64,000 bases of DNA from Methylobacterium sp. (GTDB lineage Bacteria; Pseudomonadota; Alphaproteobacteria; Rhizobiales; Beijerinckiaceae): the NCBI RefSeq assembly GCF_019745455.1, contig NZ_JAIETD010000054.1, forward strand, positions 1-64,000, in the 5' to 3' direction. Position 1 is the first letter of the stretch. The number at the start of each line of letters is the position of its first letter. Both the position numbers and the translations under genes were made by a program. This document shows positions 58,011-64,000 of the stretch, one piece after another. Under the pieces are notes generated by a model. The model was given only the letters and a program-made list of their open reading frames with translations, did not search any database and was not told where the DNA came from.

Positions 58011-58648
58011 CGGCACTGCCGTCGCCGCTGCTGGTGGTGACGGATCGTCTCGCGTGCGGAAACCTTTCTTTGGTTGCCACCATCGACTCCGTTATGGCCG
58101 CCGGAGGCCGCTGGGTCTGGTTCCGTGAACGCGACATGGATGGCGGGGACCGATTGGGCCTCGCCGTCGCTGTCATGGAGCCGGTGCGGGCCATCGGCGG
58201 GACATTCAGCCTCGGTGGCGACGCAGCCATGGCGGCGGCGATCGACGCGGACGGTGTTCACCTGCCGGGTGGGGCCGCCCCGGACGAGATCCGCCGTGCC
58301 CGCGATCTCCTGCCCGACGGCCTTATCGGCATCTCGGCGCACAGCCTCCGCGAGGTGGAGGCCGCAGCGCGTGCCGGCGCAGATTATTGTACCCTCAGCC
58401 CGATCTTCGCGACGGCGAGCAAGCCTGGCTACGGTCCCGCCCTCGGGACCGAGGCGATCCGCTCGGCGAGCGCGTCCGGCATGTCAATCGTCGCCCTAGG
58501 CGGCATCTCGCCGGACACGGTGGGCGACTGCCGCGACGCGGGTGCCGCCGGCATCGCGATCATGGGCGGCCTGATGCGGACGGCGGATCCTGGAGCTGCG
58601 GCTCTCGACTTGCTGCAGGCATTGAATCAGCGTCCGGAGGGACCATAG
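58007..58648 (+). CDS. thiE: Thiamine phosphate synthase
   Basis: A 213-residue TIM-barrel enzyme that joins the thiazole and pyrimidine halves to make thiamine phosphate. The start is GTG 58007, overlapping the thiG stop. Marks are [22 protein letters not shown] with the substrate arginines, [39 protein letters not shown] and [13 protein letters not shown]. The usual HLGQ reads HLPG here. The 3' end overlaps the convergent Anbu gene by 22 bases. The pyrimidine gene thiC is elsewhere. Confidence 0.9.
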
Positions 58649-59376
58649 GGCGGTCGCGGGATTGCCCGGTGCGCCGCCCGAAGGGCCGCCGACCAACGCT
58701 CGCGCAGGTCGTGAAAATAGCTCTCGCCCGCCTCGATCCGGTAGTTGACTTCCGTGTCGAGGGAGCCGACCCGCGAGACTGCGATGTCGATCGGCAATCC
58801 GACGCCGAGGTTCGAGCGCATGGTCGAATCCATCGAGACGAGCCCGACCTTGAGGGCGTCGTAGAGGTCGGTCTCGTATTTCACGGCGCGATCGAGGATG
58901 GGCTTGCCGTATTTATGTTCGCCGACCTGCAGGAACGGAGCATCCCGGCTGCACTCAATGAAATTGCCGGCCGAATAGATCATGAACAGCCGCATCGGCT
59001 CCGAGCCGATCTGCCCGCCGAACAGGAACGACACGTCCATCCGGAGGTTCGCGGATTCGAAGCCCTCGCGCTCGATCGCGCGCACCCTGCGGATCGCTCT
59101 GCCGACGAGCTGGGCCGCCTTGAACATGGTCGGCTGTTGCAGGATCGTCTGGAACGCCTCGCCCTCGCGGTCGTCGACACCCTCGGAGAGCATACTCAGC
59201 ACCGATTGCGTCATCGACAGGTTGCCGGCGGAAGCCAGCATCATCACGCGTTCGCCCGGCACGTTGAAATGGTGGAGCTTGCGGTAGGTCGAGATGTTGT
59301 CGAGCCCCGCATTGGTGCGGGTGTCGGCGATCATCACGAGCCCGTCCTCGACGAGGAGCCCGACGCAGTAGGTCAT
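58627..59376 (-). CDS. Anbu-type (proteasome-like) peptidase
   Basis: A 249-residue protein of the Anbu family, a bacterial relative of the proteasome beta subunit that assembles into open rings; its substrates are not known. The catalytic threonine is T2, exposed once the initiator Met is removed, with D18 (MIADTRTNAG) and K33 (TYRKLHHF) forming the proteasome-type site. GAGG lies seven bases before the ATG. In many genomes Anbu sits directly beside a transglutaminase-like, an alpha-E and an ATP-grasp gene; here those three lie upstream on the same strand but are separated by a 1.9-kb insert. Convergent with thiE. Confidence 0.92.
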   Translation of the reverse strand: MTYCVGLLVEDGLVMIADTRTNAGLDNISTYRKLHHFNVPGERVMMLASAGNLSMTQSVLSMLSEGVDDREGEAFQTILQQPTMFKAAQLVGRAIRRVRAIEREGFESANLRMDVSFLFGGQIGSEPMRLFMIYSAGNFIECSRDAPFLQVGEHKYGKPILDRAVKYETDLYDALKVGLVSMDSTMRSNLGVGLPIDIAVSRVGSLDTEVNYRIEAGESYFHDLRERWSAALRAAHRAIPRPPYGPSGR

Positions 59377-59508
59377 CGCGCAGCCTCATTGGGGTCGATG
59401 GACGGTCAGTCGATGTCGATGGCATGCCCCTTGTCGCGTCGCAAGGGTCGCCGCCGGCCTCACGTGATGACCGTCTTGTACAACGACGCAACGACGCCAT
59501 GGCCGTCC

Positions 59509-59531
59509 GGGGAGCTTAGTTATCGCTCCCC
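59509..59531. other. Hairpin after the unknown gene of the insert
   Basis: GGGGAGC (59509-59515) and GCTCCCC (59525-59531) form a perfect 7-bp stem with a 9-base loop, 56 bases after the stop of the unknown gene. No T-run follows on either strand, so it is at best a weak terminator. The 210-base gap around it shows nothing else clear and probably holds the Anbu promoter. Confidence 0.35.
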
Positions 59532-59586
59532 GGCAAACACTTACAGACTACAGATTAAAGGCGGGATCGAGTCACGAGATCGACGT

Positions 59587-60516
59587 CTAGCTGAAGATCG
59601 CGGTTCCGGCCGCGTTGCTCGTACACATCAATCCGCGGTACGGCCCTCCGGTCGGACCAACCGGGTATTCTCCGTACACCTGGATGGCATTCGGGTTACT
59701 CAGATTCGTGACCGTGACCGGTGAAAGGAAGTTGGCGGCGCTACCGGTGGATATGGTCGCGGTTCCCGCTTCGTTTCTGACCTCTGCATTTGGTCCTGGC
59801 ACGATACCGGACCAATCGTCGGCGTCCGACAGACTGAAGAGCGCGAAGGGTGTGACGGACCACGTCCCGTCAGCGTTATAGGCGACATTGAACGTCGTAT
59901 ATCCAGGCGTCGCATCGCAGAGCGCCGCGGTCGCCGATGACGACGTGAAGTTCATCACCGTACCGGGAGTATAGGTCCCGGTCGCGACATAGAACTGCAG
60001 CACGGGCTGGCAATCCAGGTTGCTGTTGGGTGTCGCGGTGACGAAGTTCGACAGCGTGACGCCGCCCGATACGGTTTGGATCGCAGAGCCCGCATTGTAG
60101 CTCTGCAGGACGGGATTGTACGGCGGCGTGATGATGCGAAAGGACCCGGCCTGCGGACCCTGCGTGGACACCGGAACGGTCAATCCCAGCGACGGCAGGA
60201 GCATGGTCGTGGTGTTGTTCGTTGGCGTCCCGCCGGCTGCTGGCGTCAGGCCGATCGGCTGGCTCGCCGCCAGTTGTCCCGAAGGCTGACCGACGACCGG
60301 GGGCGAAACCTGCTGCTGAACACCCGCCAGAAACTGGAGTATGAGCGAGAATGTCAGCACTGCTCCGGACGTGCTGTAAGGAAGCAGCGTCTGTGTATAG
60401 AGACTGTTTGTGTAAACGTTCGTTCCGCCTGAATAGATCGCAGGAGCCTGAAAGAAGAAAAAGCTCTGGGGAGTAGAGCTCATATTTTTGACGTTGATCG
60501 TGATCGGTGTTGGCAT
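59587..60516 (-). CDS. Protein of unknown family, in an insert within the Anbu cluster
   Basis: A 309-residue protein I cannot place. It begins MPTPITINVKNMSSTPQS and continues with FFFFQAPAIYSGG. The composition is rich in Ser, Thr, Gly, Asn, Gln and aromatic residues and poor in Lys, suggesting beta-sheet. There is no signal peptide or clear membrane helix. Cysteines are few (LDCQP, ALCDA, LMCTS). ATG 60516 has AGGA seven bases upstream; ATG 60585 lacks a site. Base composition and codon choice are less GC-rich than in neighbours, which points to acquired DNA. Two palindromes lie 103-148 bases upstream. A surface, toxin-like or structural role would be a guess. Confidence 0.7.
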   Translation of the reverse strand: MPTPITINVKNMSSTPQSFFFFQAPAIYSGGTNVYTNSLYTQTLLPYSTSGAVLTFSLILQFLAGVQQQVSPPVVGQPSGQLAASQPIGLTPAAGGTPTNNTTTMLLPSLGLTVPVSTQGPQAGSFRIITPPYNPVLQSYNAGSAIQTVSGGVTLSNFVTATPNSNLDCQPVLQFYVATGTYTPGTVMNFTSSSATAALCDATPGYTTFNVAYNADGTWSVTPFALFSLSDADDWSGIVPGPNAEVRNEAGTATISTGSAANFLSPVTVTNLSNPNAIQVYGEYPVGPTGGPYRGLMCTSNAAGTAIFS

Positions 60517-60618
60517 TTCCGTATCCTGAATGTTCGCATTGGGTGCACCGAACCGCTCATTCGGCGACTGACCCATCGAAACCATAGATAGAAAATGAGA
60601 CCGAGGTTCTTATCTTGG

Positions 60619-60633
60619 TTGCGCGCAGCGCAA
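60619..60633. promoter_or_regulatory. Palindromic operator copy 1
   Basis: TTGCGCGCAGCGCAA: perfect 6-bp arms around a 3-base centre. It is 103 bases upstream of the ATG at 60516 of the unknown gene and matches copy 2 at 60650-60664 in both arms. The adjacent XRE regulator is the natural candidate to bind it. Confidence 0.65.
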
Positions 60634-60649
60634 TCGGGCATACGGTTTC

Positions 60650-60664
60650 TTGCGCGTTGCGCAA
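60650..60664. promoter_or_regulatory. Palindromic operator copy 2
   Basis: TTGCGCGTTGCGCAA: the same arms as copy 1. The centres are 31 bases apart, about three helical turns, so two dimers would sit on the same face of the DNA. When the two are placed in opposite orientation the match extends outward by GG. It lies just after the regulator stop codon. Confidence 0.65.
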
Positions 60665-60674
60665 CCTGTCGACA

Positions 60675-61022
60675 TCATATCTCAGGGAATGAATCGAAGA
60701 AATTCAGGAGAGGGGCTTTCGCTGTCTCGTTCATGCGCTGTGCCAAACGATGAAACGAAGCAACGAGTTTATCGTCGCCATTATCGTATTGAGTCAGCGA
60801 TGGTTTATGCTGGTCGATATTCCCATCGCCAGTTAGAAACCAATCCAGTGATACATCCAGATATCGGCAAACTGATATTGCATTGTCGATCGACATGGGT
60901 CCGTCGTTTTTCCAGCGCGTAACTGTGCTTTCGTTCACTCCCAGACTATAAGCAAGTGCAAGCTGTTTCTGCATTTTGCGTTTTTCCATCGCTTCGACGA
61001 GTCGTTGCCCGCGTGTAGACAT
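60675..61022 (-). CDS. XRE-family helix-turn-helix regulator
   Basis: A 115-residue DNA-binding protein. The helix-turn-helix spans about 18-60 (KQLALAYSLGVNESTVTRWKNDG, then SIDNAISVCRYLDVSLDWFLTGDG), the pattern of phage repressor-type regulators that end in a WFL(T/L)G segment. The short C-terminal part (about 72-115) has no peptidase motif. The gene is clearly AT-richer than the chromosome around it and lies directly upstream of the unknown gene, same strand, with two palindromes between them. It probably controls that gene. Upstream, ACCTTAG (61077-61083) and CTAAGGT (61108-61114) form an inverted repeat. Confidence 0.82.
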   Translation of the reverse strand: MSTRGQRLVEAMEKRKMQKQLALAYSLGVNESTVTRWKNDGPMSIDNAISVCRYLDVSLDWFLTGDGNIDQHKPSLTQYDNGDDKLVASFHRLAQRMNETAKAPLLNFFDSFPEI

Positions 61023-61251
61023 CTCTATCGCCCTGGCTGTGCTTTCAGGAGGTCCGATCCGCGGGGAGAGGATGCCACCTTAGAGATATCTAATGAGCAG
61101 AATCATCCTAAGGTCGGGTGAAGTAGGCCGCTACAGGTGCTACGTCGGCTTGGGACACGCGCGTCGGGTGTGATCGGGCCTGATGCCGGGACCACGCGTA
61201 CAGGACCACCGTGTCCAGCGTACATCAACGGGCGGTCACGCGAAGGAGGGA

Positions 61252-62091
61252 TCAGCCTTGAGACTGACTTTGCTGAGCCTGGGCTTGTTCTTCGACGCGC
61301 AGCCGCACGTCCAGAGTTTCGGTGCCTCCGCCCATGCGGCTACCACGGATCGGCGCGGCCCCGAGGTAGTCGAGGCCGATCGCAACCCGAATATGAGCCT
61401 CTGTCGTCCCGATGCAGTTGGCCGGATCAAACCCGACCCAGCCGAGATCCGGCACCAGGGCCTCGACCCAGCCGTGGCCTGCTTCCTGGTCGATCACCCC
61501 GTCGGCGCGGTGGAAATAGCCCGAAACGTAGCGAGCCGGTATCTCCAAGAACCGCGATGCGGCAATGAAGATGTGAGCCATGTCCTGGCAAACGCCCTTG
61601 CGCGCCTCGAAGGACTGGGCCGCGCTGGTGCTCGCGCTCGCCGGACCAGCCTCGTAGTCGATATGATCGCTAATGGCGGCCATGAGCCGATGCAGGATCG
61701 CGAGCGGCGCTGCGTCACCCGCTGCGGCCACCGACTTGGCGAAAGCCTGGATCTCGGAATTGGCGACCGCGAGGTCCGAATCGCGCAGGTAGAACACGTC
61801 CGGCAGCCGCTCGATCGTGCCGCGGACGATCCCGTGCATCTCGTTCGTGTCGACTTCGCCGACGACGCGGATCGTCAGCGCATCGGCCGGCTCGTCGGCG
61901 GTGAACCAATGGACGACGTTGCCGAATCCATCCTCGCGCTCGCTGATCCGTCCGTCCACGGAAGGCTCGATCCGCCATTTGCGGACATATTGCCCGTCAT
62001 GGTCGCGCGGCCGCAATCTCAGCACCTGGATCAGCCCGCGGGCCGGATGCTCGTAGGTGTATTGGGTCTCGTGGACGACGCGAATGCGCAT
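61252..62091 (-). CDS. Transglutaminase-like cysteine peptidase family protein of the Anbu cluster
   Basis: A 279-residue protein. The N-terminal beta domain (about 1-110) has HETQYTYEHPARGLIQVLRLRPR. The transglutaminase core has the triad C168 (KGVCQDMAHIFIA), H206 (AGHGWVEALV) and D222 (WVGFDPAN). Such proteins act as peptidases or amidases rather than cross-linkers in bacteria. The ATG at 62091 starts the family sequence; the frame is open far upstream in the shadow of the alpha-E gene. The tail is Gln-rich (EEQAQAQQSQSQG). It follows alpha-E by 37 bases. Confidence 0.9.
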   Translation of the reverse strand: MRIRVVHETQYTYEHPARGLIQVLRLRPRDHDGQYVRKWRIEPSVDGRISEREDGFGNVVHWFTADEPADALTIRVVGEVDTNEMHGIVRGTIERLPDVFYLRDSDLAVANSEIQAFAKSVAAAGDAAPLAILHRLMAAISDHIDYEAGPASASTSAAQSFEARKGVCQDMAHIFIAASRFLEIPARYVSGYFHRADGVIDQEAGHGWVEALVPDLGWVGFDPANCIGTTEAHIRVAIGLDYLGAAPIRGSRMGGGTETLDVRLRVEEQAQAQQSQSQG

Positions 62092-62128
62092 GCGGGAACC
62101 TTGTCGCGCGGGCCTCTCAGTCTCGACC

Positions 62129-63073
62129 CTACACCAGATATTGTTCGATGATTGCCGCGCCGAGGCGATTGTTCTCGGCGATGAAGGCGGTAACGAACTC
62201 GTGCAGGCCCGAGTTGAAGACTCGCTCGATATTCTCGCCCTCGAGCCGCGCCAGGGTGTTGCTGGCAAGGCGCTGGCTCGCGCCGCGCCGGCCGTACGCG
62301 TCGGCGACCAGGTCGAGGTGCTCCACGAGCATGCCGTAGCAATTGGCGAGTGAGCGCGGCATCTGGCGGTTCAACAGCAGCAGATCGGCCACCAGCAGCG
62401 GCTTGACGCTCTCGCGGTAGACCCAGTGATAGGCGTTGAAGGCCGAGACCTCGCGCAGGATCGTGGTCCACTGGAAGTAGTCGAGACTGCCGCCGACCCG
62501 CTCGGTATCGGGCAGGAGGATGCGGTACTTCACGTCGAGGATGCGGGCGGTGTTGTCGGCGCGTTCGATGGCGGTGCCGAGCCGCGTGAACCAATAGGCG
62601 TCGTTGCGCAGCATCGTCCGGTAGGCCGAGCCGTCGAAGGCCAGTGACACGCCCTTCACCCAGTCGAGGAAATGCGAGAACTCCTCGCGGTTCAGGTCAC
62701 GGCCCTCGTAGTTGCGAAGCTCTAGCCAGGCGCCGTTGATGGCGTCCCACATCTCGGTGGTGAGCGCCGTGCGGACGCTGCGGGCATTCTCGCGCGCGGT
62801 CTCGATGCAGGAGCGGATCGAGGATGGATTATGCGGGCTGAAGGCGAGGAAGTTGCAGACCGTGGCCTCGTTCACGCTGCCGTAAAGCGGCTTGAACACC
62901 TCCGGATCGCCGGCCGAGGCCAGGGCCGAGGCCCATTCGTTGGTCTCGCCGCCGCCATAGCTCGACGGCAAGGCCGCGAGGCGGTGCGCCGCGTCGAGAA
63001 TGCGCGCCACGAACTCGGCCCGCTCGACGTAGCGGGAGAGCCAGTACAGGTTGTCGGCAGTCCGGGAGAGCAT
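62129..63073 (-). CDS. Alpha-E domain protein of the Anbu cluster
   Basis: A 314-residue, all-helical protein that begins MLSRTADNLYWLSRYVERAE, the signature of the alpha-E family. RENARSVRTALTTEMWDAIN and FTRLGTAIERADNTARILDVKY are the other conserved acidic and arginine-rich helices. The family is known from its constant linkage to ATP-grasp and transglutaminase genes; its biochemical role is not established, though an amide-bond ligase or peptide-tagging complex has been proposed. It lies 95 bases after the ATP-grasp gene. Confidence 0.92.
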   Translation of the reverse strand: MLSRTADNLYWLSRYVERAEFVARILDAAHRLAALPSSYGGGETNEWASALASAGDPEVFKPLYGSVNEATVCNFLAFSPHNPSSIRSCIETARENARSVRTALTTEMWDAINGAWLELRNYEGRDLNREEFSHFLDWVKGVSLAFDGSAYRTMLRNDAYWFTRLGTAIERADNTARILDVKYRILLPDTERVGGSLDYFQWTTILREVSAFNAYHWVYRESVKPLLVADLLLLNRQMPRSLANCYGMLVEHLDLVADAYGRRGASQRLASNTLARLEGENIERVFNSGLHEFVTAFIAENNRLGAAIIEQYLV

Positions 63074-63168
63074 GGGCTTCCGTTGTCGGGCGGACCGGAC
63101 CGTCGCCGGGCCGGGGGTTGAGACGAGCCCGTATCAGATACAGGCGGTCGGTGGCCTTAGGACGACGA

Positions 63169-64000
63169 TCAGGCGTCGAGCACCCAGGTATCCTTGGTGC
63201 CGCCCCCCTGGCTCGAATTCACCACCAGCGAGCCCTCCTTCAGGGCGACGCGGGTCAGGCCGCCAGGCACGATGCGAATCTCGTCTGCGCCGCAGAGCAC
63301 GAACGGCCGCAGGTCGACGTGGCGCGGGGCGACACCGGAGGCGACGAAGGTCGGGCAGGTCGAGAGGGCGAGGGTCGGCTGGGCGATGAAGCCGTCCGGC
63401 GCGTGACGCAGCTTCTTGGCGAACTCCTCGATCTCGCGCTTGGTGGCGTGCGGCCCGACCAGCATGCCGTAACCGCCCGATCCGTTGACCTCTTTCACGA
63501 CGAGTTCGGCGAGGTTGTCCATGACGTAGGAAAAAGCCTCCTTCTCGCGGCAGCGATAGGTCGGCACGTTGTGCAGGATCGGCTCCTCGCCGGTGAAGAA
63601 TTTGATGATGTCCGGCATGTAGCTGTAGACCGCCTTGTCGTCGGCGATTCCGGTGCCGACAGCATTCGCCAGCGTGACGGTGCCGCGCTCGTAGGCGTTC
63701 ATGAGGCCGGGCACGCCGAGCACCGAATCAGGACGGAAGACGAGCGGATCGAGGAAGTCGTCGTCGAGGCGGCGGTAGATCACGTCGACCCGCCGCGGCC
63801 CTTCGGTCGTGCGCATGTAGACGACGTCGTCCTTGGTGAAGAGGTCCGACGCCTCGACGAGGTCGACGCCGAGCTTGTCGGCCAGGAAGGAGTGCTCATA
63901 GAAGGCCGAGTTGTAGCGGCCCGGGGTCAGCAGCACGACTGTGGGGTCGCGGGTCGCCGTCTGCGGCGCGAGGCTGCGCAGAGTCGCCAGCAAGGCATCG
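63169..64000 (-). CDS. Circularly permuted ATP-grasp protein (type 2), C-terminal part
   Basis: The C-terminal 276 or so residues of a protein that continues beyond the right edge; the frame is open to position 64000. [55 protein letters not shown] and [24 protein letters not shown] are typical of the circularly permuted ATP-grasp family found beside alpha-E and transglutaminase genes. ATP-grasp enzymes form carboxylate-amine bonds through an acyl phosphate. The ending [13 protein letters not shown] is conserved in the group. It should be the first gene of the cluster in the window. Confidence 0.92.

Follow-up and report, generated by a model that had tools for sequence, protein, structure and literature searches.

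We identified a pair of palindromic sites that are very probably the operators through which an adjacent XRE-type regulator controls a RhiA-like gene, whichever the sign of that control. The pair is located in a 64,000-nucleotide stretch of Methylobacterium DNA, hereafter the window, between the gene of a 115-residue regulator of the XRE/Cro-CI type and a target gene whose product is remotely related to RhiA of Rhizobium leguminosarum (Table 1). Judged from sequence comparison, the regulator gene, the two sites and the target gene form a module, which is found inside the Anbu operon here and at other places in Rhodopseudomonas. In the open-access literature on RhiA with RhiR, a helix-turn-helix repressor, Methylobacterium or RhiA/B/C, we found no paper appearing to describe this module. 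With a candidate operator now named, binding is testable by a simple gel shift, and removal of the XRE could show when and why a RhiA-like protein is made.

Table 1. Module features and flanking genes in the window (position 1 is its first letter).
Feature	Position	Strand	Description
Anbu-like proteasome-fold gene	58627..59376	-	Pfam Proteasome 9.7e-5, just above cut-off
Target gene, 309-aa protein	59587..60516	-	residues 3-227 remotely related to RhiA; longer ORF from 60585
Operator O2 (predicted)	60619-60633	.	TTGC-N7-GCAA type, TTGCGCGCAGCGCAA; 31 bp from O1, on the target-gene side
Operator O1 (predicted)	60650-60664	.	TTGC-N7-GCAA, here TTGCGC-N3-GCGCAA, TTGCGCGTTGCGCAA; 10 bp past the XRE stop codon
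XRE/Cro-CI type regulator, 115 aa	60675..61022	-	Phage_CI_repr, HTH_26, HTH_3 (Pfam)
Transglutaminase-like gene of the Anbu operon	61252..62094	-	on the other side of the module from Anbu

The palindrome pair and the regulator type

The initial annotation had pointed out two perfect TTGCGC-N3-GCGCAA palindromes 31 bp apart, placed between an XRE gene and its downstream neighbour. Exact matches were present at both positions, between the XRE gene and the start of the downstream gene on the same strand. O1 and O2 were the sole pair of palindromes with the same arms within 200 bp across the window (6-bp arms, spacers of 0-8), and 60 dinucleotide shuffles of the window contained a mean of 0.15 such pairs (largest 3), or 0.017 (largest 1) with a spacer of 3. 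The exact sequence occurs three times genome-wide, O1 and O2 included. The third match (L028:5174-5188; C19:52173-52187 in its own genome) is located 24 bp before the ATG of a 264-aa ORF, which looks secreted by eye and is possibly a further target.

Absence of the motif beside homologues of the regulator, which the initial annotation had named as contrary evidence, was not observed: Methylobacterium soli and Rhodopseudomonas keep the pair with its 31-bp spacing. In M. soli (G048/L029), whose XRE and target gene are 64% and 69% identical to their counterparts in the window, the space between the XRE gene and the target gene carries TTGCGCGCGATGCAA and TTGCTCGCGGAGCAA, likewise 31 bp apart. A search with the target-gene alignment yielded 14 loci, six of which have a close XRE just upstream. 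Five of these six carry the exact pair, located at -117 to -152 relative to the start codon; in L031, the remaining locus, a full site is accompanied by a degenerate one, O1 not being complete. Counting the window, these six loci and three loci found through the pattern itself, the exact pair at 31 bp occurs in 9/10 loci with a close homologue of the 115-aa XRE, or in 6/7 after subtraction of the three pattern-found loci. What the relatives have in common is a doubled TTGC-N7-GCAA with 31-bp spacing. Between 3 and 8 of nine sequences lack base pairs 5 and 6 of the arms, so the perfect 6-bp arms are present in the window but not kept as a conserved trait; since only the outer TTGC/GCAA is invariant across the relatives, the longer arms are a trait of the window genome. 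The 16 core positions showed a mean identity of 95% against 37.5% in the flanks over the 10 loci, several of which are Rhodopseudomonas loci that are close relatives and hence not independent. This conservation indicates that the palindromes are real sites.

The exact pair was absent from all 20 other loci of the target-gene family, in which 300 bp upstream were scanned and where either no XRE was found or the XRE has a different recognition stretch; these 20 include several Rhizobium plasmids that are close relatives of one another. A single site was seen in one of them, L066. The counts of 9/10 and 0/20 leave out L038, which comes without upstream DNA, second gene copies, and L055-L057, which are remote relatives from the order sample and whose genomes lack the exact pair. 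In L041 and L042 the XRE lies more than 300 bp upstream; the 350 bp after the XRE were scanned in L006 and L007, which hold the same genes, and contained no site. The helix-turn-helix stretch NESTxTRWKN is common to all ten XREs of the close type, and XREs beside the target-gene family without the motif have VSxAAVSRWQ or ISPAAxTKW instead. The pair of sites stands beside close XRE homologues and was not found where that XRE type is absent. Because 9/10 close-XRE loci have the pair against 0/20 other family loci, the motif tracks the regulator type and not the target gene. For the second XRE type, on Rhizobium plasmids, a common operator was sought and not found; a CAAC-N8-GTTG-like element, recognised by eye in five of its loci and imperfectly in one of these, amounts to no more than a lead. 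In another Methylobacterium (L008; L025:4186-5764), a related XRE has one TTGCGGGAGGCGCAA 16 bp past its stop codon, next to a different ORF of 409 aa.

We ran the 46-bp double pattern, that is, two TTGC-N7-GCAA at 31 bp, over sets of genomes. It was found in 2/111 genomes of the genus, both times at this pair of XRE and target gene, and in 3/397 genomes of an order sample, namely that of the window and two whose 3-kb locus contained neither XRE nor gene. Across the family around a Rhodopseudomonas genome, 11/391 genomes were positive (reversed control, 1/391). The module was present at the pattern in seven of the 11, four already known and three new (G675, G695, G734), so that the pattern used alone on 391 genomes led to three further copies of the module. 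In the remaining four (G610, G838, G851, G868), the 3-kb locus showed neither an XRE nor a convincing target gene, G851 giving only a 23-residue match (E 0.043); the place and letters in G610 are the same as in G280, a positive of the order sample. Of the nine genomes behind named loci, four, all Rhodopseudomonas, contain the double pattern once each and five, L031's genome among them, not at all. Two genomes (L074, L075) have in common a TTGC-N7-GCAA pair of similar make-up, spaced at 31 bp but located elsewhere, with no XRE or RhiA-like match in the 3-kb locus of either; the pair in L074 adjoins an ORF that is LysR-like by eye.

The target gene and RhiA

The start of the target gene was set at 60516 because relatives align from its methionine and an AGGA lies just upstream. 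The gene had been called unknown, and with respect to curated families it remained so, as the protein gave nothing credible in Pfam, NCBIfam, PHROGs, PADLOC or PDB sequences; profile comparison, however, now makes it a remote relative of RhiA. Even with an E-value limit of 1, this partner of the XRE had no match in Pfam, NCBIfam, PHROG or PADLOC, toxin families included. Eighteen family members compared with Pfam hit three families, one member each (best E 0.0021), and the 18-row family profile gave one match in PDB sequences (E 0.21). When the same profile was aligned by hhalign with a two-row RhiA profile, the match reached 94.6% (E 6.6e-8, 196 columns), against 0.3% for the reversed control and at most 0.7% for 100 column shuffles. 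Plain BLASTP between the two single sequences (E 0.091) and hhalign of a 4-row target profile with RhiA alone (0.4%) were not significant. On the strength of the profile match and its controls, we call the target protein a remote, collinear relative of RhiA, and not RhiA. The predicted structure (pLDDT 85.6) is mostly beta. No fold is claimed from this model because Foldseek returned no match at E 0.001 or better and the VIA second look did not exceed Z 5.6, its best row covering the C-terminal part only.

A 2008 paper presents RhiA as a small cytoplasmic protein with high expression (PMC2275737); the target protein is probably cytoplasmic. Reports of RhiA as an abundant protein go back to 1984-1992, and the 2008 paper still gives its function as unknown (PMC2275737). 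Induction of rhiABC is reported to proceed via RhiR (PMC4149787). In the true rhi layout, rhiA is followed by rhiB (annotated as a tail fibre protein) and rhiC, with rhiI/rhiR beside. The identity of the target with RhiA itself was dropped, as strain 3841 carries the rhi genes apart from its target-family member on the same plasmid. Nor is the target the rhiA of a rhiABC operon, since its neighbours are the proteasome-fold Anbu and transglutaminase genes and not rhiB, rhiC, rhiI or rhiR. Compared with the rhiI - rhiABC - rhiR system, a neighbouring XRE would stand in for quorum control in the module. The two are alike in that XRE and target relatives adjoin LuxI/LuxR genes on Rhizobium plasmids; in L044, L046, L065, L067 and L068, LuxR and LuxI diverge from the XRE and RhiA-like genes in a rhi-like layout, and a second target-family member follows in L044 and L046.

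The target gene was found in 4/111 genomes of the genus, all four with an XRE relative upstream, and, with the family profile, in 5/397 of the order sample. Relatives were found in Rhodopseudomonas, Bradyrhizobium, Pseudomonas and a cyanobacterium, among others. Plasmid records with a relative number 101 (45 of Rhizobium, 29 of Serratia, 21 of Phaeobacter, the rest of four other genera); phage records contained none at E 1e-5. RhiA is hereby linked, remotely, to a wider family across bacteria and plasmids that in part has its own XRE gene. In Pseudomonas sp. MF4836, the family member has a homologue of RhiA as its next gene (30% over 211 positions; E 3e-17 when the search covered the collected loci). 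A second target-family copy, 33-55% identical to the window protein, follows the first in L030, L032, L036, L041 and L042. No second copy follows the target gene in the window, where the next gene is Anbu, 210 bp further on and encoded on the same strand; no terminator-like site was called in the gap.

Proposed mechanism and sign of control

The regulator has an N-terminal XRE-type helix-turn-helix domain, to which all its Pfam matches belong (Phage_CI_repr, 4.2e-8; HTH_26 and HTH_3 above cut-offs), and the palindromic sites adjoin its gene and are conserved with its type. Its best matches among solved structures were weak (P22 C2 repressor, E 0.022), and its predicted structure (pLDDT 47) was not used. 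P22 C2 and lambda CI are phage repressors with clustered operators. Like CI/Cro/C2-type repressors, the module combines an XRE-type helix-turn-helix with several palindromic operators beside the regulator gene. In contrast to them, the XRE is just 115 aa long, and its Pfam matches up to E 1 include no C-terminal S24 peptidase domain, in which it is unlike an SOS-cleavable phage CI repressor. The module also differs in that sites were found ahead of the downstream gene alone: none was present in the 250 bp preceding the XRE gene in 7/7 loci, and hence there is no sign of XRE autoregulation.

We infer that the 115-aa XRE binds the sites. One XRE dimer would read each TTGC-N7-GCAA, and a pair of dimers, lying on the same face of the helix at a distance of about three turns, would bind together, both dimers and cooperativity being presumed. 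The bound XRE would then switch the promoter of the downstream RhiA-like gene, and the XRE, its operators and the gene would constitute a cassette between the transglutaminase and Anbu genes. As for the sign, repression is more likely than activation, and we somewhat favour a model in which the gene is repressed until some signal acts on the XRE.

A possible reading that differs in sign only, and which we consider rather doubtful, is that the XRE is an activator whose two sites just upstream of a weak -35 recruit RNA polymerase to the RhiA-like gene. No sigma-70-like promoter was called in 58500-61400, which suits this reading, as do the missing sites before the XRE gene itself. In several Rhodopseudomonas-type loci, by eye, a TTG-starting hexamer 7 bp after O2 is followed 17-18 bp on by a CTA/TTA-starting hexamer; this possible -35 just downstream of O2 would suit an activator as well, with the sites centred near -50 and -81. 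The -35-like hexamer was not seen in the two Methylobacterium loci, however, and most of the families that match the XRE best are termed repressors.

It is improbable that the sites serve another regulator, such as a PraR-like XRE, instead of the neighbouring one. PraR, a small XRE-type repressor of rhiR in R. leguminosarum, resembles the module XRE in its cro/CI-like helix-turn-helix and has a reported consensus, TTGCAA, that looks like two half-sites joined (PMC4149787). By its description there, however, PraR acts on many promoters, and this description sets it apart from a local pair with a fixed 31-bp spacing. The double pattern occurs once per positive genome, here, unlike sites for a regulator of many promoters, and the pair follows the neighbouring XRE type and not the gene family. 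The xre-luxR-luxI modules of Phaeobacter prophages likewise have an XRE gene in a compact mobile regulatory unit; the passages describing them mention no RhiA-like target, and the authors set rhiABC-linked luxI genes aside (PMC13345283).

We regard it as very improbable that the palindromes are RNA hairpins that end or stabilise the XRE transcript. Each site can pair 6-3-6, O1 starts close behind the XRE stop codon, and two inner O2 pairs are changed on both sides, with a count of further pair types reached by only 29/500 shuffles. The share of paired cells is nevertheless no higher than in shuffles (266/500 reach it), and the covariation score was reached by 48/500. What tells against the hairpin is that most of the inner stem pairing is not preserved, pairs 5 and 6 being unpaired in the same 3 to 8 of nine sequences noted above; no terminator-like site was called at the palindromes, and a fixed 31-bp spacing would not be expected. 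Chance palindromes in GC-rich DNA can practically be dismissed in view of the pair statistics and the conservation, even though the window, with two mismatches allowed, contains no more single sites than shuffles do (5 observed, 7.05 expected).

The module in the Anbu operon

An Anbu operon with transglutaminase, ATP-grasp and Alpha-E genes is already described (PMC5666114). We took the name Anbu from the neighbour genes and that paper, and compared the gene order in relatives. The transglutaminase of the window (Bact_transglu_N, 1.4e-22; Transglut_core, 9.2e-22) had matches in 16/21 genomes, the best locus of each being examined. In 13 of these 16 loci (11 of the genus), Anbu begins 44-261 bp beyond the transglutaminase match, and one locus showed no Anbu in the stretch examined. 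The window and M. soli have the module between the two genes, which are 1875 and 2133 bp apart. At the other 13 of the 14 target-gene loci, a search for six proteins that neighbour the module in the window found none of them within up to 6 kb on each side. The identities of XRE and target gene are correlated (r 0.68; 1/2000 permutations as high). The suggestion of a self-contained module thus held up, in that the two identities go together and the block is found at different genomic places; these neighbourhoods indicate that the module moves. Nothing resembling insertion borders was found among repeats in 59300-61300.

A travelling cassette of XRE, operators and RhiA-like gene may have entered the Anbu operon such that its switch now also governs the downstream Anbu gene, which we consider unlikely; if true, a conserved peptidase system would be tied to the signal sensed by the XRE. 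In the span 58627-63993, the conserved set of Anbu, transglutaminase and Alpha-E genes is interrupted by the module.
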